Source of the DNA: Porphyromonadaceae bacterium
GTDB taxonomy: Bacteria; Bacteroidota; Bacteroidia; Bacteroidales; UBA12481
Assembly: GCA_007280905.1 (NCBI GenBank)
Contig: QYQM01000061.1
Span: forward strand, 1 to 64,000
Direction of reading: 5' to 3'
Length of the DNA: 64,000 bases
The translations under genes and the position numbers were made by a program. The notes beneath the pieces are model-generated. The model was not told where the DNA came from. It searched no databases and was given only the letters and a program-made list of their open reading frames with translations. Below are positions 4,920 through 33,592 of the stretch, in pieces (the stretch's first letter is position 1; every line of letters starts with the position of its first letter).

Positions 4920-6206
4920 TTAACCGGCAAACTCCAGCATTGCTTTGATAAACTGATCGAGTTCTGCGATCGTGGTATACACGCTCGGGGTGACCCGGAT
5001 TCCACTGACTTTTTCCCAGTTAATCGGGGTAGTCAGGATTTTATATTTTGTCATCAGGTACGACTGGAGCTCTTCGGGTTTTTTCCCATCGATGCTGAAA
5101 TTCCCCAATCCACAGGAATATTCAGGTTTCTGAGAAATGTTCAGTGTAACCTTTGGATGGGTCTTGATTGCATTCACCCAGTAATCTTTCAGATAGCGAA
5201 GACGGTGTTCCTTACGGGCCGGACCAATCATGTTGTAAAAATCGATGGCGGTGCTGATGGCCAGTTCAACGGCAAAGGGCCGCGTTCCGATGTTTTCAAA
5301 TTTCCGGATATCGGTGCTTTTAGGATCGGGAGCTGCCATCAGCGGCCATATCTTACCGATTTTATCAGCTTTTACATACAGAAAACCGGTCCCGAACGGG
5401 GCGAACAGCCATTTGTGAAGGCTGGTACCAAAATAATCGCACTCTAGGTCAGGAACTTTGAAAACCAGGTGGGCGAAAGAATGAGCCCCATCAACCATAA
5501 CCTCAACATTGCGGTCGTGAGCAGCCTGTGAAATTTTTTTAATCGGCAGAATCTGTCCGGTCCAGTTGATCACATGGGTTACATTGATCAGTTTCGTCCG
5601 GGAAGTAAATTGATCGGTATATGCTTTAATAATCAGGTCGTCATTTTCAACCGGCATCGGCAGGTCCACCCATTTCAGCACGATCCCGTCGCGCATCTCC
5701 CGTTGTTTCCAGGCATTCATCACGTTCGGGTAATCATATTTGCATAGTACCACCTCATCACCTTTCTCTAAAGGGAATCCGAAAATGATTTGGTCGAGTG
5801 CCTCGGTAGTATTCCTTAGAATGGCAATAGTGTCGGGTAAACATCCCGCGGTTGCCGCCAGTTTGCGGCGCATAGGCTCCCGCTCTTCGCCGAGGATTGT
5901 CCACATGTAATGAGCTGGTCCCTCATTGCTGACGCTTTGGTAATGGGCCACTTTGTCCTGCACAATCTTTGGCTGGGGACTTACCCCGCCGTTGTTGAGG
6001 TTAATCAGGTTCGGCGAAATCGTAAAAGCCTGTCGGATGAATTGCCAGAACTCTTCATCTGTGGCCAATTCTCCAGGTGTGATCGATTCAACCTCGCTTA
6101 ATTTTCGTTCGAATCCGGGCCCTATGGCCGATGCCATTGGTGCCAGTGCCACACCGCCGGCCACTCCCAGTGTCCGGTTGATGAATTCTCTGCGATTGGT
6201 TTTCAT
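4920..6206 (-). CDS. Class V aminotransferase-fold PLP enzyme (isopenicillin-N epimerase-like) with Tat-type signal
   Basis: MKTNRREFINRTLGVAGG signal; NNGGVSPQP, VDGAHSFAHL, GTSLHKWLFAPFGTGFLYV. Confidence 0.85.
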   Translation of the reverse strand: MKTNRREFINRTLGVAGGVALAPMASAIGPGFERKLSEVESITPGELATDEEFWQFIRQAFTISPNLINLNNGGVSPQPKIVQDKVAHYQSVSNEGPAHYMWTILGEEREPMRRKLAATAGCLPDTIAILRNTTEALDQIIFGFPLEKGDEVVLCKYDYPNVMNAWKQREMRDGIVLKWVDLPMPVENDDLIIKAYTDQFTSRTKLINVTHVINWTGQILPIKKISQAAHDRNVEVMVDGAHSFAHLVFKVPDLECDYFGTSLHKWLFAPFGTGFLYVKADKIGKIWPLMAAPDPKSTDIRKFENIGTRPFAVELAISTAIDFYNMIGPARKEHRLRYLKDYWVNAIKTHPKVTLNISQKPEYSCGLGNFSIDGKKPEELQSYLMTKYKILTTPINWEKVSGIRVTPSVYTTIAELDQFIKAMLEFAG

Positions 6207-24379: not shown

Positions 24380-25343
24380 TTATGCCATAAACCCCGCCAG
24401 CACGATCGCCGTAATGGCTTCCAGTACTACTGGCACCCGCAAGGCAATACAGGTATCATGCCGACCGCCGATCATCAGTTCTTCAAGCTTTCCGCTTTCG
24501 AAATTGATGGTTTGCTGAGGTTGTGATGTGCTTGAAGTAGGCTTGACTACAACCCTGAAAACTAAATCATTGCCGTTGGTCAATCCACCGTTGATTCCAC
24601 CAGCATGATTCGTAGCGGTTTTTCCATCCAGGGATGTGATCCGGTCGTTATGCTCGGATCCTTTCATCTTTGCAGCTGCGAACCCGCTGCCGAATTCAAT
24701 GCCTTTAACAGCAGGGATGGCAAATGCTGCATGAGCCAGCATTGATTCCACGGAATCAAAGAAAGGCTCACCTATCCCAATAGGCATGGGCGATGCCACG
24801 CATTCAATGATCCCTCCGATGGAGTCTTTTTCTTCTATAGCTCTGGCAATAGCTGCTTCAATGTCACTGTTGCCACCTGCTTCCACGAGCCGGGCTGATA
24901 TCTGGATCGCTCCGATCATTTTTTTTGCCACTACCCCGGCTGCTACCAAAGCCAGGGTTAGCCTTCCGCTGAAATGTCCGCCACCCCGATGGTCATTGAA
25001 ACCATCAAACTTCATCTTTGCTACCCAATCTGCATGCCCGGGTCTGGGCTGCTTCAGGATATGGTCATAGTCTCCTGATTTAATATTTTTGATTTTCAAA
25101 TACTATAGTCAATGGAGCTCCCGTGGTGTATCCATTAAACCATCCTGATACAATTCTCGGCTGATCGGCCTCCACTCGTGGTGTGGTACCTCTTGCTCCC
25201 GGTTGCCGGCGTCGGATATCATCCGTAAAATCTGTTTCTGATAATGGAACACCCGGTTTGCAACCATCTATTGTGATGCCAAGAAGCGGACCATGTGACT
25301 CGCCGAAAATGCTGACCCTGAAACGATTACCGAAACTATTCAT
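24380..25343 (-). CDS. aroC: Chorismate synthase, split by an apparent 1-nt frameshift
   Basis: MNSFGNRFRVSIFGESHGP...LTIVFENQ(KY*) then frame change to NIKSGDYDHILKQPRPGHADW...; removing one A from the A5 run (25086-25090) restores the frame. Confidence 0.9.
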
Positions 25344-26589
25344 CGATTCTTCCTCCCAAAGATTTAATATCCTGATAGAAACCAGGATAAGATTTTGCTA
25401 CACACTCTGCACCGGTGATTTGTACCGGAGTACGTGCAATCATGGCCACTGTTGCGGCAGCCATCGCAATCCGATGGTCTCCATGTGAATCCACCTCGCC
25501 GGTTTTCATCAGCGATGGCCCTGTAACATACAGATTTCCATTTTCCACGCGTATGGATATTCCTAATTTGTAAAACTCTTCCTGCAACACCTTGGCACGA
25601 TTACTCTCTTTATGGATCAGCCGCCCCACTCCTTCAATCCGGCTTACCCCATTGCAATGTGCCGCAAGAGCCACCAGAGGAGGGAATAGATCCGGACAAT
25701 GTGTGGCATCAAAATCAAATGCTCTTAATTCATCCCGGCTTACGGTTACACAGTTTTCACCGATCTCAACCCGGGCACCGGCATAACCAAGAGCCTTCAG
25801 AATCTGGCGATCAGCCTGCAACGAATCCGCCTGCAGTCCGCTCACCGTAACCCCTCCCGCCAGAGCACCGGCTACCAGCAGAAAAGCCGCTCCACTCCAG
25901 TCCCCTTCAACAGTAATAGTCGCAAGCCGGTACTTTTGTTTACCCGGGATGCAAAATGTCTCATATTGATGGTGCGATACCGAAATCCCGAATTGTTTCA
26001 ATATATTGATTGTCAGATCAATATATGGTAAACTCTGCAAATTATTGACCGTAATTTCTGAATCTCCCTTGATAACAGGCAAAGCCATCAGCATGCCGGT
26101 TAGTAATTGTGACGATACCGATCCATCGATAGTGGCCTTGCCGCTTTTCAGCGGGCCTTTTATCCAGACCGGCAGAAATCCATCCTGGGATTGACAGCGG
26201 CAACCCAGTTGATTCAATGAATCCGTAATCATCTGTACCGGACGTTTTAGCAAAGAACCGGTGCCGTTCATCAACATGGTCTGATCGGCAAGCGCAGCGA
26301 TCGGCGAAAACATCCGTAAACTCAATCCGGCCTCACCGCAATCCAGCTTCTGTCCTATTGGATTAAAACCGCCTTTGATAACGAGGTGATCCCCCAGGTC
26401 ATCAACGGAGGCTCCCAATTGCCGGATGATTCCCATGGCTGCCTTTGCATCATCGCTCCGCGACGGATTCCGGATAATCGTTGTCCCCCTGGTCAGCAAG
26501 GCCCCGGCTAACGCTCTCTGAGCATAACTCTTCGACGGCGGTGCAACAACCTCTCCCGATACCTTCGACCTCTGAACCGTTATCTGCAT
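25336..26589 (-). CDS. aroA: 3-phosphoshikimate 1-carboxyvinyltransferase
   Basis: PPSKSYAQRALAGALL, DCGEAGLSLRMF, HGDHRIAMAAATVAM. Confidence 0.95.
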   Translation of the reverse strand: MQITVQRSKVSGEVVAPPSKSYAQRALAGALLTRGTTIIRNPSRSDDAKAAMGIIRQLGASVDDLGDHLVIKGGFNPIGQKLDCGEAGLSLRMFSPIAALADQTMLMNGTGSLLKRPVQMITDSLNQLGCRCQSQDGFLPVWIKGPLKSGKATIDGSVSSQLLTGMLMALPVIKGDSEITVNNLQSLPYIDLTINILKQFGISVSHHQYETFCIPGKQKYRLATITVEGDWSGAAFLLVAGALAGGVTVSGLQADSLQADRQILKALGYAGARVEIGENCVTVSRDELRAFDFDATHCPDLFPPLVALAAHCNGVSRIEGVGRLIHKESNRAKVLQEEFYKLGISIRVENGNLYVTGPSLMKTGEVDSHGDHRIAMAAATVAMIARTPVQITGAECVAKSYPGFYQDIKSLGGRIDE

Positions 26590-26635: not shown

Positions 26636-26667
26636 AGTCTTATCGTCTTAAAGTATTAAAGTCTTCT
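26636..26667. repeat. GTCTTANN octamer repeat tract (locus B), inside the aromatic operon
   Basis: AAGTCTTATCGTCTTAAAGTATTAAAGTCTTC. Confidence 0.75.
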
Positions 26668-27755
26668 CACTCCCCGTTCATAATCTTTGTTTGTGTGTTG
26701 ATGGATTCCTGATGTATCGCCATAAATAATTTTCGGATAAACTCATCCGACAATCCTTTTGATTGCCCTTCCGCCAGGTATTTTGATATGATCTGATCCC
26801 AGCGTGCCGGTTGAAGGATGGTTACTCCGTTATCTTTTTTGCACTGACCAATACCGGCAGCCACTTTCATACGGTCTTCGAGAATATTAAGCAATTCCTG
26901 GTCGAGGCGGTCGATCTCGCCTCTGAGTTCTTCAAGCTTGTGAATGAACCCGTTGCTTCCGGGATCAGTCCGGCGGAGAATCAGATGATCCAGCAATTGG
27001 CCCAATTCTTCCGGTGTAATCTGCTGACGGGCATCCGACCAGGCATTGTCAGGATCGGGATGCGTTTCAATCATCAGGCCATCATAATTCAGGTCCATAG
27101 CCTTTTGCGAAATTTCTTGCAATAAATTCCGGCGGCCGGAAATGTGGCTCGGATCACAGATAAGGGGTAAATCAGGTCTCAATCGTTTTAATTCAATAGG
27201 AATCTGCCAGTTGGGTGAGTTCCGGTAACGGTTTTCTGAAAAGCTGGAAAATCCTCTGTGCACAGCAGCAATCCGCGTAATTCCAACCTTCTCCAATCGC
27301 TCGATTGATCCGATCCATAAGTCCACATCGGGATTCACAGGGTTCTTTACAAAGATCGGAATATCCACCCCGCTAAGCGCATCAGCTATCTCCTGGATCG
27401 TAAAAGGGTTGACAGTAGTTCTGGCTCCGATCCACAGCATATCCACACCATATTTCAGGGCTTCGTAAACATGCTGTGCATTAGCTACTTCAGTGGTGGT
27501 GAGTAGCCCCGTCTCCTCTTTAACCATTTTGAGCCATTTTAACCCCTTAACTCCAACTCCTTCAAAAGAATTGGGACGGGTACGCGGTTTCCAGATTCCG
27601 GCACGGAATACCTGTGTTCGTGTTGCCTTTAAACGTCGTGCAGTTTCCAGAACCTGCTCTTCTGTTTCGGCCGAACAGGGCCCGGCTATTACCATCGGCC
27701 TCGTAGCATCGAGATTCCATCCGGCAAACGGAGGTGTAGTTATTTTTGATTCCAT
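26667..27755 (-). CDS. Bifunctional DAHP synthase / chorismate mutase
   Basis: VIAGPCSAETEEQVLETA, FRAGIWKPRTRPNSFEG; C-terminal CM: ELRGEIDRLDQELLNILEDRMKVAAGIGQCKKDNGV. Confidence 0.93.
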   Translation of the reverse strand: MESKITTPPFAGWNLDATRPMVIAGPCSAETEEQVLETARRLKATRTQVFRAGIWKPRTRPNSFEGVGVKGLKWLKMVKEETGLLTTTEVANAQHVYEALKYGVDMLWIGARTTVNPFTIQEIADALSGVDIPIFVKNPVNPDVDLWIGSIERLEKVGITRIAAVHRGFSSFSENRYRNSPNWQIPIELKRLRPDLPLICDPSHISGRRNLLQEISQKAMDLNYDGLMIETHPDPDNAWSDARQQITPEELGQLLDHLILRRTDPGSNGFIHKLEELRGEIDRLDQELLNILEDRMKVAAGIGQCKKDNGVTILQPARWDQIISKYLAEGQSKGLSDEFIRKLFMAIHQESINTQTKIMNGE

Positions 27756-28600
27756 GGGTTCAATTTTAATGTTTTTTGAATAATATTAGCTTTTTTTATC
27801 AGTTCTCTAACTTTCTTTGTTTCACCAGATTGGATCAAGTCCTTAAACTGAGTCATCTTCTCAATATAGGTTTCCATAACTTCCACTACATTCTCGCGAT
27901 TCTGATCGAAAACAGGCACCCACATATCCGCCGAGGATGCGGCCAGCCTTACGGTACTGTCAAATCCTCCCGAAGCCAGGTTCAGAATGTTTTTTTCATT
28001 CTGCTCCTTATCCAGAACGGTCAGGGCCAAAGCAAACGATGTCAGGTGCGAAATATGCGAAACATAGGCTGTATGAAGGTCGTGTTCCTTTGAACTCATG
28101 AATATCAGCCTCATATTCATCGCCATGTATAAATTTGTGATTGTCTCCAATGCCTTCGGATGGCTCTGCGACATATCACAAATGATCCCGACTTTTTTAT
28201 TGAAAAGCCCGGGCAAGGCAGCCTCGGGACCAGAGAATTCTGTACCTGCCATTGGGTGGGAGGGTACATAATTTGAACGTTTGGGATGGTTTTTAACCTG
28301 CTCCGTAATGCTCATCTTGGTTGATCCAACATCTGTTACCGCCTGATGGGTCACATAATCCAGAACAAACGGCAACAAGCTGAGAATGCCGTCAACCGGG
28401 ATAGCCAGGATGATCAGATCCGATTGCTGAATACCATCGACCAGCTTGGCAACCTCATCAACCAAACCCCTCTCAAGAGCGATTTTTGCATAAAAAGGGT
28501 TCTTTTCCACACCGATTACCCGTTCTGAAAATCGCTTAGTCTTTAATTCCAGGCCGATAGATCCCCCGATCAGACCCAGGCCGATGATACATACTGTCAT
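27740..28600 (-). CDS. tyrA: Prephenate dehydrogenase
   Basis: VCIIGLGLIGGSIGLELK, DVGSTKMSI, PSHPMAGTEFSGP. Confidence 0.9.
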   Translation of the reverse strand: MTVCIIGLGLIGGSIGLELKTKRFSERVIGVEKNPFYAKIALERGLVDEVAKLVDGIQQSDLIILAIPVDGILSLLPFVLDYVTHQAVTDVGSTKMSITEQVKNHPKRSNYVPSHPMAGTEFSGPEAALPGLFNKKVGIICDMSQSHPKALETITNLYMAMNMRLIFMSSKEHDLHTAYVSHISHLTSFALALTVLDKEQNEKNILNLASGGFDSTVRLAASSADMWVPVFDQNRENVVEVMETYIEKMTQFKDLIQSGETKKVRELIKKANIIQKTLKLNPWNQK

Positions 28601-29769
28601 ATTATTTTTCCATTAATTCTATCTATCGCACTGCTGATTACCTCTTTCGGCTGGCACAAAGAAACCCTTATATATTGGTCCCCCTGTGGCCCGAAAATGA
28701 ATCCCGGGGTGATAAACACCCTCTTCTCCAATAATATCCGATCAGCTAAACTTTGACCGGAGGCTTCTATCGATGGAATCTGCGCCCAAACGAAAAGCCC
28801 CGATTGATCTTTGTCGTACGTGCATTTCAACTTTTCCAGCAGGGCATAGGCCATCACCTTGCGCTCCCGATAAATGGAGTTGATACCTTCATACCACGCA
28901 GGACCCGCTTCAAGTGCTTTGATAGCTGCAAGCTGCATCGGTTTGAACATGCCGGAATCCATCTGGCTTTTAAAGCGCATCAGGTAATCGAGATACTCTT
29001 TTCGGCCTGCCACCATCCCGATCCGCCAGCCAGCCATATTATGTGATTTGCTTAAACTGTTTAGCTCAAGCGAAGTTTCAATGGCATCCGGTACAGCTAA
29101 AAGACTGATTGGTTGATCATTCAAGATAAAACTATACGGATTGTCATTCACCAGCAAAATCTTGTGATACTTCGCAAAAGCAACCAGCTCTTCAAAAAGT
29201 TCCTTTGTTGCCCTTTTGCCGGTAGGCATGTGTGGAAAGTTGACCCACATCACCTTAACCTGATGCAAACCAAGCAACTCGATGAAGTTTAAATCGGGCA
29301 GCCAATTGTTTTCAGGCAAAAGCGGATAAGTGATGACCTTTGCACCCGCCAGCCTGGTCACAGCGGCATAGGCCGGGTATCCCGGATCCGGAACCAATGC
29401 TGCATCTCCCGGACTCAGGAACGACATCGCAATGTGCATCAATCCCTCCTTCGATCCAAATAGCGGCAATATCTGGCTCTCCGGATCAAGCTCTGCTCCA
29501 TAAGATCTTGAATACCATCCTGCAAAAGCTTTGCGCAAATCCGATATGCCCTGATAGGGCTGATAACCATGCGCTTTTTCATCACGGGCCTGAATGGCAA
29601 GTTCCTCAATAACATCTGCTTCGGGTGCCTGATCGGGACTTCCAACCCCCAGGTTAATTACCGGTTCCCCGGTGAGGTCCATCTCCCTGATTTGCTTTAG
29701 TTTGGTCGAGAAATAGTACTCTTCCAATCCTTCAATCCTTGCCGAAGGTTCAATCAGTATTTTTTTCAT
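28597..29769 (-). CDS. Class I/II PLP-dependent aminotransferase
   Basis: NLGVGSPDQAPEADVIEEL, NDNPYSFI, LNSLSKSHNMAGWRIGMVAG. Confidence 0.92.
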   Translation of the reverse strand: MKKILIEPSARIEGLEEYYFSTKLKQIREMDLTGEPVINLGVGSPDQAPEADVIEELAIQARDEKAHGYQPYQGISDLRKAFAGWYSRSYGAELDPESQILPLFGSKEGLMHIAMSFLSPGDAALVPDPGYPAYAAVTRLAGAKVITYPLLPENNWLPDLNFIELLGLHQVKVMWVNFPHMPTGKRATKELFEELVAFAKYHKILLVNDNPYSFILNDQPISLLAVPDAIETSLELNSLSKSHNMAGWRIGMVAGRKEYLDYLMRFKSQMDSGMFKPMQLAAIKALEAGPAWYEGINSIYRERKVMAYALLEKLKCTYDKDQSGLFVWAQIPSIEASGQSLADRILLEKRVFITPGFIFGPQGDQYIRVSLCQPKEVISSAIDRINGKII

Positions 29770-30620
29770 TGGATATGTTTTCCCTGTATGTATTCACCCA
29801 GAATAGATAATTCGTGCGTTAGCGGACGGATCGCATCGAGCGCCTGCCGGTACCTGACCGGATCATCAAACGTAAGATCGACCAGAAAATGATATTCCCA
29901 CTCCTGACCAATGATCGGAATCGATTGAATTTTTGTCAGGCTGATCCTGTAAAATGAAAAAATTGAAAGCACTTGCGACAGGCTGCCGGTTTCATGTGGG
30001 AGGGTGAACGACAAGGATGCCTTATCCGGATGATCCACTTTAAATGGTTGAATGCCATTGGGTTTATACATCAGAAGAAAACGAGTAAAGTTTCGTTTAT
30101 TAGTCTCGATGCCATGTGCCAGGATATCCAGTCCGTACATTTCAGCAGCCCGTTCACCGGCAATTGCTGCCGACCCGGCCAACCCCTTTTCAGCTATCCG
30201 CTTGGCGCTTGCGGCAGTATCATCGGCCTCGATCAGGCGGATTCCCGGATATTCCCTGAAAAAGGTTCGGGTTTGTGCAATAGCCATATAATGGGAATAG
30301 GCTTCCCTGATATTCTCAATGGACTGGCCGGGTAAAGCCATCAGATGCTGGCTGATGCGTAAAAAAATCTCGCCAAAAACCGTAAATCCGGAATCCCGGA
30401 GTAAAACATAATTGGGAAGGAGGGATCCTGCCACAGTATTTTCAATAGCCATTATGGCTACATCTGCCTTTCCGGTTTTTACCGCTTCAAATAAATCCTC
30501 GAATGCCACGCAAGGCACAAGCTCTACTTCGCGGTCCGGAAAATAGTCGCGGGCGGCCTGGTCATGGAATGATCCTGCTATCCCCTGAATCGCTGCCCTT
30601 ATGGTATCTGTCTCTTTCAT
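29766..30620 (-). CDS. pheA: Prephenate dehydratase
   Basis: AAIQGIAGSFHDQAARDYF, NTVAGSL, ETNKRNFTRFLLM, ACT domain SLSQVLSIFSFYRISLTKIQSIP. Confidence 0.93.
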   Translation of the reverse strand: MKETDTIRAAIQGIAGSFHDQAARDYFPDREVELVPCVAFEDLFEAVKTGKADVAIMAIENTVAGSLLPNYVLLRDSGFTVFGEIFLRISQHLMALPGQSIENIREAYSHYMAIAQTRTFFREYPGIRLIEADDTAASAKRIAEKGLAGSAAIAGERAAEMYGLDILAHGIETNKRNFTRFLLMYKPNGIQPFKVDHPDKASLSFTLPHETGSLSQVLSIFSFYRISLTKIQSIPIIGQEWEYHFLVDLTFDDPVRYRQALDAIRPLTHELSILGEYIQGKHIQ

Positions 30621-30640
30621 AGTTAACGTATAAAAATAAA

Positions 30641-30665
30641 AATCCCGGTCTTTTGGACCGGGATT
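30641..30665 (-). terminator. Attenuator terminator upstream of pheA
   Basis: Minus strand AATCCCGGTC-CAAAA-GACCGGGATT followed by TTTATTTTT; perfect 10-bp stem. Confidence 0.93.
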
Positions 30666-30690
30666 CGCTTATATTGATCTTTTTCTTAGC

Positions 30691-30783
30691 CTAAATTCTG
30701 ATCATGGCGTTCCCGGTCGAGCTTTTATAATAAAAGCCGAAAAAGAAGAAGAAAAAATAATATACTCCGGAAAACGCTTGCAT
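30691..30783 (-). CDS. Phe/Tyr-rich leader peptide MQAFSGVYYFFFFFFGFYYKSSTGNAMIRI
   Basis: 30-codon ORF not in the ORF track; 8 Phe and 4 Tyr codons; ends 25 nt before the terminator. Confidence 0.85.
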   Translation of the reverse strand: MQAFSGVYYFFFFFFGFYYKSSTGNAMIRI

Positions 30784-30803
30784 AATTATTTACTATCAGG
30801 GAT

Positions 30804-30834
30804 CAAAAGTAGAAACCGATTCTGAATAAACAAA
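30804..30834 (-). promoter_or_regulatory. Bacteroidota-type promoter of the pheA operon (TTTG-N19-TACTTTTG)
   Basis: Minus strand TTTG at 30834-30831 and TACTTTTG at 30811-30804, matching -33 TTTG / -7 TAnnTTTG. Confidence 0.75.
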
Positions 30835-30907: not shown

Positions 30908-33592
30908 ATGAAAGTCCTGACTCCCGTAACGTCCGTAACCCCCGTAACGTTCTTTTCGCTCTTCACTCTCTTGTCGTTCTTCTCCCTTTTTTCATCATGT
31001 ACTACCAAAGAGTTTCACGTTTATTCCGATCCTGCATATAGTCAGCGGGTTGAGGCCCGATTCAATGAAAGGAAGACTCTGGCTGCAAAACGGGACACTG
31101 CTTTATTCGGGGTATTTAATCAGAATTTAACTGTTGCCGAACAGGAAGGTCTGAAATTTCTGTATGCCTATATGCCTCTCAATGATTTGGCTGATTATAA
31201 TGGCGATTTTTATCTTAATCAGGTTCGCTGGAGCCTGAATGCCCGTGAAACTTTTGCCTGGGGAAAATCAATCCCCGAAGACCTGTTTCGTCATTTTGTG
31301 CTTCCATACCGTGTCAACAATGAAAACCTCGACACGGCACGTATTGTCTTTTTCAGGGAATTGAAGGACCGGATTAAAAATATGACCATGCTCAACGCAG
31401 CACTTGAAGTAAATCACTGGTGCCATGAAAAGGTGACTTATCGGGGAAGTGATATCCGTACATCTGCCCCATTGGCTTCATTAAGAACGGCTTATGGCCG
31501 TTGCGGAGAAGAGTCGACCTTTGCAGTGACCGCCCTCCGGGCCGTGGCCATTCCTGCCCGCCAGGTATACACCCCCCGCTGGGCCCACTCAGATGATAAC
31601 CATGCCTGGGTGGAATTCTGGGCCGATGGCAAGTGGCATTATATGGGAGCCTGTGAACCTGAATGTGTTCCCGATCTGGGCTGGTTCACCGAACCTGCCC
31701 GACGGGCCATGCTCATCCATACTAAAGTTTTTGGCGATTATAAAGGCGGTGAGCGGGCTGAAAACCGCGAAACCAACTATGCTCTGATCAATACGCTATC
31801 TACCTATGCTCCAACCAAAGAGATTCACGTTCAGGTCCGTAATGCTGAAGGTACACCCGAAAAAAATGCTTCTGTTGAATTCCAGTTGTATAATTATGCA
31901 GAGTATTATCCGATTTCAATCAAAAAGACCGATGAAAACGGATCATGCAGTTTTGTTAGCGGTTTTGGCGATTTACTCGTGTGGGCTCATACCGACAATC
32001 ATTTCGGCTTTAAAAAGATTACGGTGGCGGATATTGATACACTCAAACTGATAACTGATCAGGAACCTTATGATGGACTCAGTATGGAATTCGATATGGT
32101 ACCGCCGGTTCAACGGGAACCTTTCCAGATCGCCAACGATTGCCGTGATCAGAATAACCGGATGCTCCAAAGGGAAGATTCTATCCGCGGTGCCTATGAA
32201 AAAACCTTCCGCACGGAAGAGCAGGCCCGTAAATTTGCCGCTTCCCTCAATCTGGATCCCGATCAAATCTGGAACTTCATTTCCCGCAGCCGCGGCAACT
32301 ATGCCGAAATCGAAACTTTCCTGAAATCTACTGATCCTGCTTTTCGATCCACTGCCCTTCAACTCCTTGGCCTGATCGCCGATAAGGACCTTCGTGACAC
32401 AAAGGCTGGCATCCTGCTAGATCATCTGCCTAATGTAGTGGTCACCCCGGCGAAGGCCGGGACCCCGTCCCTAACTACGAATGCCGACCTCTTTAACCCC
32501 CGCGTAGCAAACGAAATGCTCGTAGCCTACCAGAAATTTTTAATCTATAAATTCAGACAGGCATTTATCGATGAAATGCGTCAGAGCCCGAAGAATTTCA
32601 TTAACTGGATCCGGCAGGAGATCAAAATCATCCCTTCTGAGAACTATTACAACACCCCGCTAACCCCTGTAGGAGTTTATAATCTGAGAGTGGCCGATGA
32701 GGAATCGCGAAAAATATTTGCTGTTGCCTGCTACCGGACTTTTGGCATCCCTTCCCGGCTGAAACCGGGAACATTGGAAGTTGAGTACTGGTTCCGGGAT
32801 CGTTGGTATAGCGCTGATTTTGGTATATCTGCCACAAGCCCACAACCTGAAGCAACGCTGATTCTCACCAGCGATCCGTCCAATCCCGTTAAGCCTCAGT
32901 ATGAAACTCATTATACTCTTGCCCGATATGAAAAAGGGAAATATAAAACCATGGCTTATGGCAATGATAATTCCGGTGATCCTCTGACTAGTCCGCTAAC
33001 ACTCGCACAGGGTCATTATCTACTTGTAACCGGAAATCGTGTTCCCGGGGGGAAAGTCCTCAGTAACCTTACCTTTTTTAAATTGACAGCCGGCGAAAAG
33101 AAGGAAATGATGATCACCTTGCGGAAGTCCGGTCAGGCCACGGTAGTGATTGGAACGCTCAGCCCGGTTTGGCCGGTTAAGCCGATGGACCGCAATTCTT
33201 TTGATTGGAAACAGATCCTTGCTACCGATCGGGCAATCATCTGCTGGATAGAGCCGGATAAAGAACCATCCAAGCACGTTTTTCAGGATCTGGGAACCCT
33301 GAAAAAAGAAATCGATAAGCTTGATTGCCCATTCATCTTCCTGATTCCTGAAAATAAATTGCCCGCTGGATTCACATCCGATACCTGGAAGAACCTTCCT
33401 TCATCATCCCGTTTTGTAACCATACCGGATTTGTCTTCATTGGCGGAGCTGGAAAAAGTCGCGGGAAAAAGCCTGGCCGGCCAGTTCCCGATTGTTATCA
33501 GGATCAATAAAGATGGGAAAGTGACTTACCTTTCGTCCGGTTATAAAATTGGTATCGGTGAGGAAATCATTAAGGATTTGCTGATGAGATGA
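30908..33592 (+). CDS. Transglutaminase-like domain lipoprotein
   Basis: YGRCGEESTFAVTALRAVAIPARQVYTPRWAHSDDNHAWVEFW (Cys-His-Asp triad context); lipobox-like FSSC. Confidence 0.8.
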   Translation: MKVLTPVTSVTPVTFFSLFTLLSFFSLFSSCTTKEFHVYSDPAYSQRVEARFNERKTLAAKRDTALFGVFNQNLTVAEQEGLKFLYAYMPLNDLADYNGDFYLNQVRWSLNARETFAWGKSIPEDLFRHFVLPYRVNNENLDTARIVFFRELKDRIKNMTMLNAALEVNHWCHEKVTYRGSDIRTSAPLASLRTAYGRCGEESTFAVTALRAVAIPARQVYTPRWAHSDDNHAWVEFWADGKWHYMGACEPECVPDLGWFTEPARRAMLIHTKVFGDYKGGERAENRETNYALINTLSTYAPTKEIHVQVRNAEGTPEKNASVEFQLYNYAEYYPISIKKTDENGSCSFVSGFGDLLVWAHTDNHFGFKKITVADIDTLKLITDQEPYDGLSMEFDMVPPVQREPFQIANDCRDQNNRMLQREDSIRGAYEKTFRTEEQARKFAASLNLDPDQIWNFISRSRGNYAEIETFLKSTDPAFRSTALQLLGLIADKDLRDTKAGILLDHLPNVVVTPAKAGTPSLTTNADLFNPRVANEMLVAYQKFLIYKFRQAFIDEMRQSPKNFINWIRQEIKIIPSENYYNTPLTPVGVYNLRVADEESRKIFAVACYRTFGIPSRLKPGTLEVEYWFRDRWYSADFGISATSPQPEATLILTSDPSNPVKPQYETHYTLARYEKGKYKTMAYGNDNSGDPLTSPLTLAQGHYLLVTGNRVPGGKVLSNLTFFKLTAGEKKEMMITLRKSGQATVVIGTLSPVWPVKPMDRNSFDWKQILATDRAIICWIEPDKEPSKHVFQDLGTLKKEIDKLDCPFIFLIPENKLPAGFTSDTWKNLPSSSRFVTIPDLSSLAELEKVAGKSLAGQFPIVIRINKDGKVTYLSSGYKIGIGEEIIKDLLMR
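32437..32480. repeat. Dispersed palindromic repeat inserted in-frame in the transglutaminase-like CDS (copy 4)
   Basis: GTGGTCACCCCGGCGAAGGCCGGGACCCCGTCCCTAACTACGAA; shares the tail CCCGTCSCTRACYACGAA with copy 1 (7978-7994). Confidence 0.75.

Follow-up and report, generated by a model that had tools for sequence, protein, structure and literature searches.

The closest described systems are ribosome-mediated attenuators of enterobacteria. The trp and his leaders of Escherichia coli and Salmonella are organized in segments that pair as 1:2, 2:3 and 3:4, with the control codons by segment 1 and the stop codon in or near segment 2; a stop far along segment 2 is a known route to lower basal readthrough (PMC1183508). 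pheA is among the known attenuated operons of E. coli (PMC1183508), and the enterobacterial pheA attenuator (pheL; Rfam RF01859) combines a Phe-rich leader peptide, a terminator and an alternative antiterminator before pheA. A leader with two short-ORF attenuators has been described for Salmonella mgtCBR (PMC3641672). In Bacteroidota, the main text of a study of Flavobacterium psychrophilum reports a structured 5′ element before pheA, conserved in other Flavobacteriaceae and without Rfam hits, together with strong indications that operons for amino acid biosynthesis are attenuated through leader peptides (PMC9723704), and leader-peptide-like sORFs have been mentioned in passing for B. thetaiotaomicron (PMC7366714).

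The locus analysed here lies in a 64,000-nucleotide stretch of a Porphyromonadaceae genome (contig QYQM01000061.1, positions 1 to 64,000; referred to as the window). Judged by its sequence, the minus-strand element before pheA is a full four-segment attenuator with helices 1:2, 2:3 and 3:4 (Table 1). It is very probably a ribosome-mediated switch for the pheA-aat-tyrA-DAHP synthase/CM-aroA-aroC operon, with charged tRNA-Phe and tRNA-Tyr as the sensed signals. Its parts, conservation, covariation, spacing and match between leader codons and operon content are established by computation. The element has the features of the attenuator class, namely an ORF of product codons between promoter and terminator, a terminator just before the first gene, a covarying and mutually exclusive antiterminator, a competing 1:2 helix and control codons that match the operon. 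One further feature of the class, a ribosome that permits the antiterminator while on the control codons and prevents it once beyond them, was found by computation only. Unlike the trp and his attenuators, the window element would sense two amino acids, and its RNA without a ribosome is predicted to antiterminate. Relative to the enterobacterial pheA attenuator, it differs in carrying both Phe and Tyr codons, in preceding a long operon that includes tyrA and DAHP synthase, and in its phylum and promoter.

Table 1. Coordinates of the candidate attenuator and of the operon behind it, as positions in the window.
Feature	Position	Strand	Basis or remark
Upstream promoter element TTTG	30831..30834	minus	sequence
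-7 element TACTTTTG	30804..30811	minus	sequence; motif upstream of homologous leaders
Segment 1, 5′ part of protector helix 1:2, overlapping the leader start	30767..30786	minus	duplex with segment 2 (30716-30701), -17.5 kcal/mol; covariation, 157 loci
Leader ORF MQAFSGVYYFFFFFFGFYYKSSTGNAMIRI	30691..30783	minus	30 codons; Phe/Tyr-rich ORF conserved before pheA
Control codons Tyr8 to Tyr19 (YYFFFFFFGFYY)	30727..30762	minus	run occurs once in the genome; computed switch window
Antiterminator 5′ arm GACCGGGA, duplicating the terminator 3′ arm	30711..30718	minus	own-partner pairing; compensatory changes
Part of segment 2 pairing with segment 1 (CCGGGAACGCCATGAT)	30701..30716	minus	duplex with segment 1
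Inner antiterminator helix, 5′ strand TGATC	30700..30704	minus	fold
Inner antiterminator helix, 3′ strand GATCA	30675..30679	minus	fold
Segment 3, terminator 5′ arm AATCCCGGTC, also able to pair with the antiterminator arm	30656..30665	minus	sequence; terminator scan; covariation
Segment 4, terminator 3′ arm GACCGGGATT followed by the T-rich tail	30632..30650	minus	terminator scan; hairpin -18.0 kcal/mol
pheA, prephenate dehydratase	29766..30620	minus	first gene of the operon
aat, LL-diaminopimelate-type aminotransferase	28597..29769	minus	
tyrA, prephenate dehydrogenase	27740..28600	minus	above NCBIfam cut-off
DAHP synthase fused to chorismate mutase	26667..27755	minus	
aroA, EPSP synthase	25336..26589	minus	
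aroC, chorismate synthase	24380..25343	minus	frameshift-split

An earlier note on this DNA had proposed a promoter, a leader ORF, a copied arm and a terminator upstream of a pheA-tyrA-aro operon. A re-check of the sequence found each part where it had been placed, with pheA starting at 30620 and tyrA and the aro genes downstream; the protector (1:2) helix and the inner TGATC/GATCA helix had been overlooked. The promoter elements TTTG and TACTTTTG are 19 nt apart, and the leader ATG (30783) follows the -7 motif by 20 nt. The peptide holds 8 Phe and 4 Tyr, the antiterminator arm sits within the final part of its ORF, and the stop codon ends at 30691. The intrinsic terminator, AATCCCGGTC-CAAAA-GACCGGGATT-TTTATTTTT (30665-30632), is the top terminator-like match in the 16 kb scanned and ends 11 nt before the pheA start. 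Since the promoter lies on one side, pheA on the other, and the next gene upstream (30908-33592, plus strand) is divergent from the leader and points away, this terminator cannot close another operon. Within the operon, aroC is broken into two reading frames near 25086 by one additional A in an A-run, which the aroC of a same-genus locus (L031) lacks; the split reflects a real frameshift or an error of the assembly.

The association of such leaders with pheA far exceeds the background. The window's run of Phe/Tyr codons (six Phe/Tyr, one other, two Phe/Tyr) occurs a single time in the 4.39-Mb genome. When an ORF with at least seven Phe/Tyr in 12 residues was taken as the criterion, 81% of 199 pheA upstream regions contained one, compared with 0.6% of 1,244 further gene starts taken from these loci. 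Several of the control positives are themselves pheA, read from an alternative start, or reflect an operon whose first gene lies one gene earlier. The motif TANNTTTG, the consensus -7 element of Bacteroidota promoters, was found upstream of 128 of 155 leaders at a median of 22 nt from the leader start, where shuffles predicted 9.3 and control windows gave 6 of 148. As a separate observation, one locus (L092) carries near 6057 a Phe/Tyr leader ending in LFYGFYYYFYFSK; the gene behind this leader lies about 1 kb upstream of pheA, which suggests that this operon begins one gene earlier than pheA.

The sampled loci surround pheA homologues; they come from the window's relatives, from its wider order, class and phylum, and from a set of named genomes, a few genomes being represented twice. 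The attenuator design precedes pheA in 176 of these 205 loci. Leader ORF and duplicated arm, on whose conservation the earlier note had made its reading depend, are kept together with the terminator in all 10 loci of the window's own family with sufficient upstream sequence and in all 19 from other orders of the same class, and compensatory changes were found in the paired arms. A leader was also present in 18 of 18 families of the order sampled singly, in 62 of 67 further loci of the order, and in 65 of 78 named genomes (Bacteroides, Phocaeicola, Parabacteroides, Alistipes, Prevotella and others). Within the order, pheA copies without a leader are often not the first gene or lie near a contig end. 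On this sampling of sequences, the attenuator is a class-wide family that includes common gut bacteria, and not a peculiarity of the window's genome; the leader-bearing loci from other orders likely include flavobacteria. Outside the class, the leader was found in 2 of 13 loci. These two genomes (L171 and L187) have a Bacteroidia-type pheA with a leader, whereas the sampled relatives in the phylum have a different pheA and no leader, and a transfer of pheA together with its switch is possible.

Comparison of leader codons with operon content provides the strongest evidence that the codons themselves would act as the sensor. Detection of tyrA relied on the window's tyrA and two further tyrA queries; with the window's tyrA as the only query, no link between operon and Tyr content was seen, and the divergent tyrA of Bacteroides-type operons was missed. 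In the 149 loci with a DAHP synthase gene after pheA, of which 134 have tyrA as well, every leader except one has at least two Tyr in its run, and the sole exception (L169) also has a second leader that is richer in Tyr. By contrast, all six stand-alone pheA loci, from four families, have a run with none or one Tyr (6/6 versus 1/149, Fisher p 4e-10), as exemplified by MITINNSFFFFFFRSDPEKGL and MTRFFTHFFFFFTQQ. Three of these four families have detached aat/tyrA/DAHP synthase operons with a Tyr-rich leader and terminator of their own, and in the fourth the contig starts inside the operon. The detached leaders include MIKNISVFAYFYYYFYFSKK, MNNTFGYYAFYYYFFYNN and the tandem pair MTTYTFSYFYYWFRTP and MVNFEFYYGFYYYLD; such operons were seen in L280, L281, L282, L283 and L284, with tandem units in L280 and L282. 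A single family (f19) contains both states, a fused operon with a mixed leader (L142, L237) and a split operon with a Phe-only leader (L232). The proposal that the leader senses both Phe and Tyr is backed by this codon content, which follows the content of the operon.

These data also bear on whether the attenuator senses only Phe in practice, with the Tyr codons as permissive A+T-rich filler. Phe does outnumber Tyr in the window (8 versus 4), and TTY and TAY differ by one base. Against this, 148 of the 149 loci with an operon for more than Phe keep their Tyr codons, stand-alone pheA genes have at most one in the run, detached tyrA operons have Tyr-rich leaders, and the window's Tyr8-Tyr9 and Tyr18-Tyr19 all fall inside the computed switch window. 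A Phe-only sensor is on these grounds unlikely, and sensing of both amino acids is preferred.

Covariation analysis supports all three helices of the candidate attenuator. In a 15-sequence alignment, 3 of 7 terminator (3:4) pairs and 4 of 8 antiterminator (2:3) pairs have changed on both sides, and shifting the partners by sliding abolished the signal. The antiterminator arm pairs with its own terminator arm better than with those of other loci (p 9e-22). Among 157 distinct leaders, the 2:3 duplex reaches -14.4 kcal/mol with its own partner versus -9.8 with swapped partners (p 4e-24), and the 1:2 duplex -13.3 versus -9.4 kcal/mol (p 5e-21); control pairings of segment 1 with other stretches gave no signal. 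Structure positions were picked by best complementarity, a choice for which the swapped-partner controls correct. Kinship among the loci inflates the p-values, an effect that the swapped-partner tests reduce and do not remove, and independent events were counted roughly by family. Within the genus of the window, ATTATGCAAGCGTTTTCCGG and CCGGGAACGCCATGAT make up the 1:2 helix, which shows compensatory changes, to GCATT/AATGC in L004 and L005 and to GGCAT/GTGCC in L002. A narrow pairing test of the GGGA arm core against the 5′ leader had given no signal (p 0.28); the view that the leader has no protector helix was dropped when segment 2 was widened to 25 nt and a strong 1:2 signal appeared.

The same helices weigh on the notion that the short ORF encodes a functional small, perhaps membrane, protein, with the hairpin as the terminator of its own transcript and a separate promoter for pheA. 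A hydrophobic, Phe-rich peptide could enter membranes and the ORF is widely conserved; the peptide sequence, however, is unconserved beyond its Phe/Tyr content, the codon content shifts with the downstream genes, two overlapping alternative helices covary with the terminator, and the 11 nt between terminator and pheA are too short for another promoter. Together these points make a small-protein gene highly improbable and favour the attenuator. A nascent-peptide arrest leader was considered separately and rejected, as the peptides vary freely except in Phe/Tyr content and have no conserved arrest motif.

A very probable working cycle can be outlined for the attenuator. Briefly, transcription would start near 30798 and a ribosome would load onto the leader ORF. 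With Phe or Tyr scarce, the ribosome would stall at early Phe/Tyr codons and cover segment 1, leaving segment 2 (GACCGGGA and TGATC) free to pair with segment 3, and the operon would be transcribed. With both amino acids abundant, the ribosome would advance into segment 2; the 2:3 pairing would be lost, the terminator 3:4 would form and transcription would stop before pheA. We infer in this way that the leader is translated, that termination takes place in the cell and that the operon responds to starvation.

The spacing of the leaders is consistent with this cycle. The last Phe/Tyr codon precedes the antiterminator arm by 9-18 nt (median 13), and a ribosome protects about 10 nt past its A-site codon. 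In 152 of 157 loci, a ribosome stalled at the last Phe/Tyr codon would leave 80% or more of the arm free; in 122, one at the stop would cover half of it or more. Nascent-RNA partition-function folding with a modelled ribosome yielded a median antiterminator probability of 0.95 on the first Phe/Tyr codon, 0.96 on the middle one and 0.93 on the last; the median was 0.00 for a ribosome at the stop and 0.37 with no ribosome. A comparison of terminator and antiterminator folds, suggested in the earlier note as a check, has in this form given the antiterminator on Phe/Tyr codons and a median of 0.00 at the stop, with the window's own unit at 0.83 there. In the window, the probability of 2:3 is 0.66-0.99 at codons 4-19, 0.30 at Lys20 and 0 at codons 21-30, and this boundary between Tyr19 and Ser21 coincides with the last control codon. 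The antiterminator returns once the ribosome has reached the stop and the arm is exposed behind it, so repression in the window species should depend on the terminator forming first. Without a ribosome the value is 0.98, and antitermination is predicted; given this and the partial return at the stop, tight repression hinges on timing. For leaders of the Parabacteroides type the ribosome-free value is 0.00 (L095), which predicts termination. The fully folded window leader favours the terminator at every ribosome position tried, and the switch therefore relies on the order of folding during transcription. Spacers from other loci still gave 2:3 probabilities of 0.55-0.61, compared with 0.24-0.28 for shuffled spacers, so that much of the signal comes from the conserved common arm.

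A direct sensor of Phe, Tyr or uncharged tRNA, that is, a riboswitch or T-box with an incidental ORF, would share its position and its terminator/antiterminator logic with the present element. The window has no match to a T-box or riboswitch family, or to any other Rfam family, at gathering score. Its best sub-threshold match is itself a leader-peptide family, Phe_leader (RF01859; 22 bits, E 0.25, gathering score 55), and a search of seven relatives returned only a distant cobalamin riboswitch in L109. The leader consists of little other than ORF and switch, with scant space for an aptamer, and its Phe/Tyr codons are conserved and follow operon content. A riboswitch or T-box is accordingly an exceedingly remote prospect beside the leader-peptide attenuator.

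The mechanism of attenuation is already known; the pheA family is absent from Rfam and has been hinted at only in flavobacteria. The F. psychrophilum element lies before the same gene, and the main text of that study gives no anatomy, codon logic, covariation or spread past Flavobacteriaceae (PMC9723704). In the literature searched, no account was found of the Phe/Tyr switch, of how widely it occurs or of its codon logic; the search was limited, and absence from it is not proof. A comparative study of attenuation in bacteria by Lopatovskaya et al. (2010) may include Bacteroidetes.

Tandem arrangements extend the family further. At least 12 loci have two complete leader-plus-terminator units in series before pheA (L011, L070, L116, L121, L126, L144, L149, L159, L169, L205, L206 and L210), and L018 and L154 are further cases recognized by eye. 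This is reminiscent of the two attenuators in the mgtCBR leader, with the difference that the tandem pheA units are two full copies of one kind of amino acid switch, each with its terminator. L011, from the window's family, combines a first unit resembling the one in L010 (81% over 149 nt) with a second resembling those of L007 and the window (75% over 130-132 nt). A second copy is therefore the probable origin of the window-type unit. On balance, we lean towards a history in which the attenuator is ancestral to class Bacteroidia: upon splitting of the operon, the pheA leader would shed its Tyr codons and the tyrA branch would gain a Tyr-rich attenuator, and serial duplicates, such as the L010-like and window-like units of L011, would represent an intermediate or a graded two-stage switch.

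Candidate leader peptides were also observed elsewhere in the window's genome, before hisG, trpE and ilvD (L250, L251 and L253), each with a terminator. The hisG leader (MNNNFLHIAHHLHHIMMLETHAEK) is His-rich and the trpE leader (MKQKLNFNNWWWYVT) contains WWW; a quick test of these two found no simple antiterminator arm, and they are candidates by codons and terminator only. ilvD is preceded by two tandem units rich in Ile, Leu and Val, with a terminator after each and matching antiterminator arms in both (10 and 7 bp). Leader-peptide attenuation is probably general in this organism.

RNA-based metabolic control in Bacteroidota is poorly charted, and Rfam holds no model for the pheA element. 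The switch makes a clear prediction and occurs in genetically tractable gut Bacteroidales, in which it is directly testable. Leader codons set against split and fused operons offer comparative evidence that the codons are sensed, and their matching reveals the re-tuning of such switches after operon break-up or duplication.
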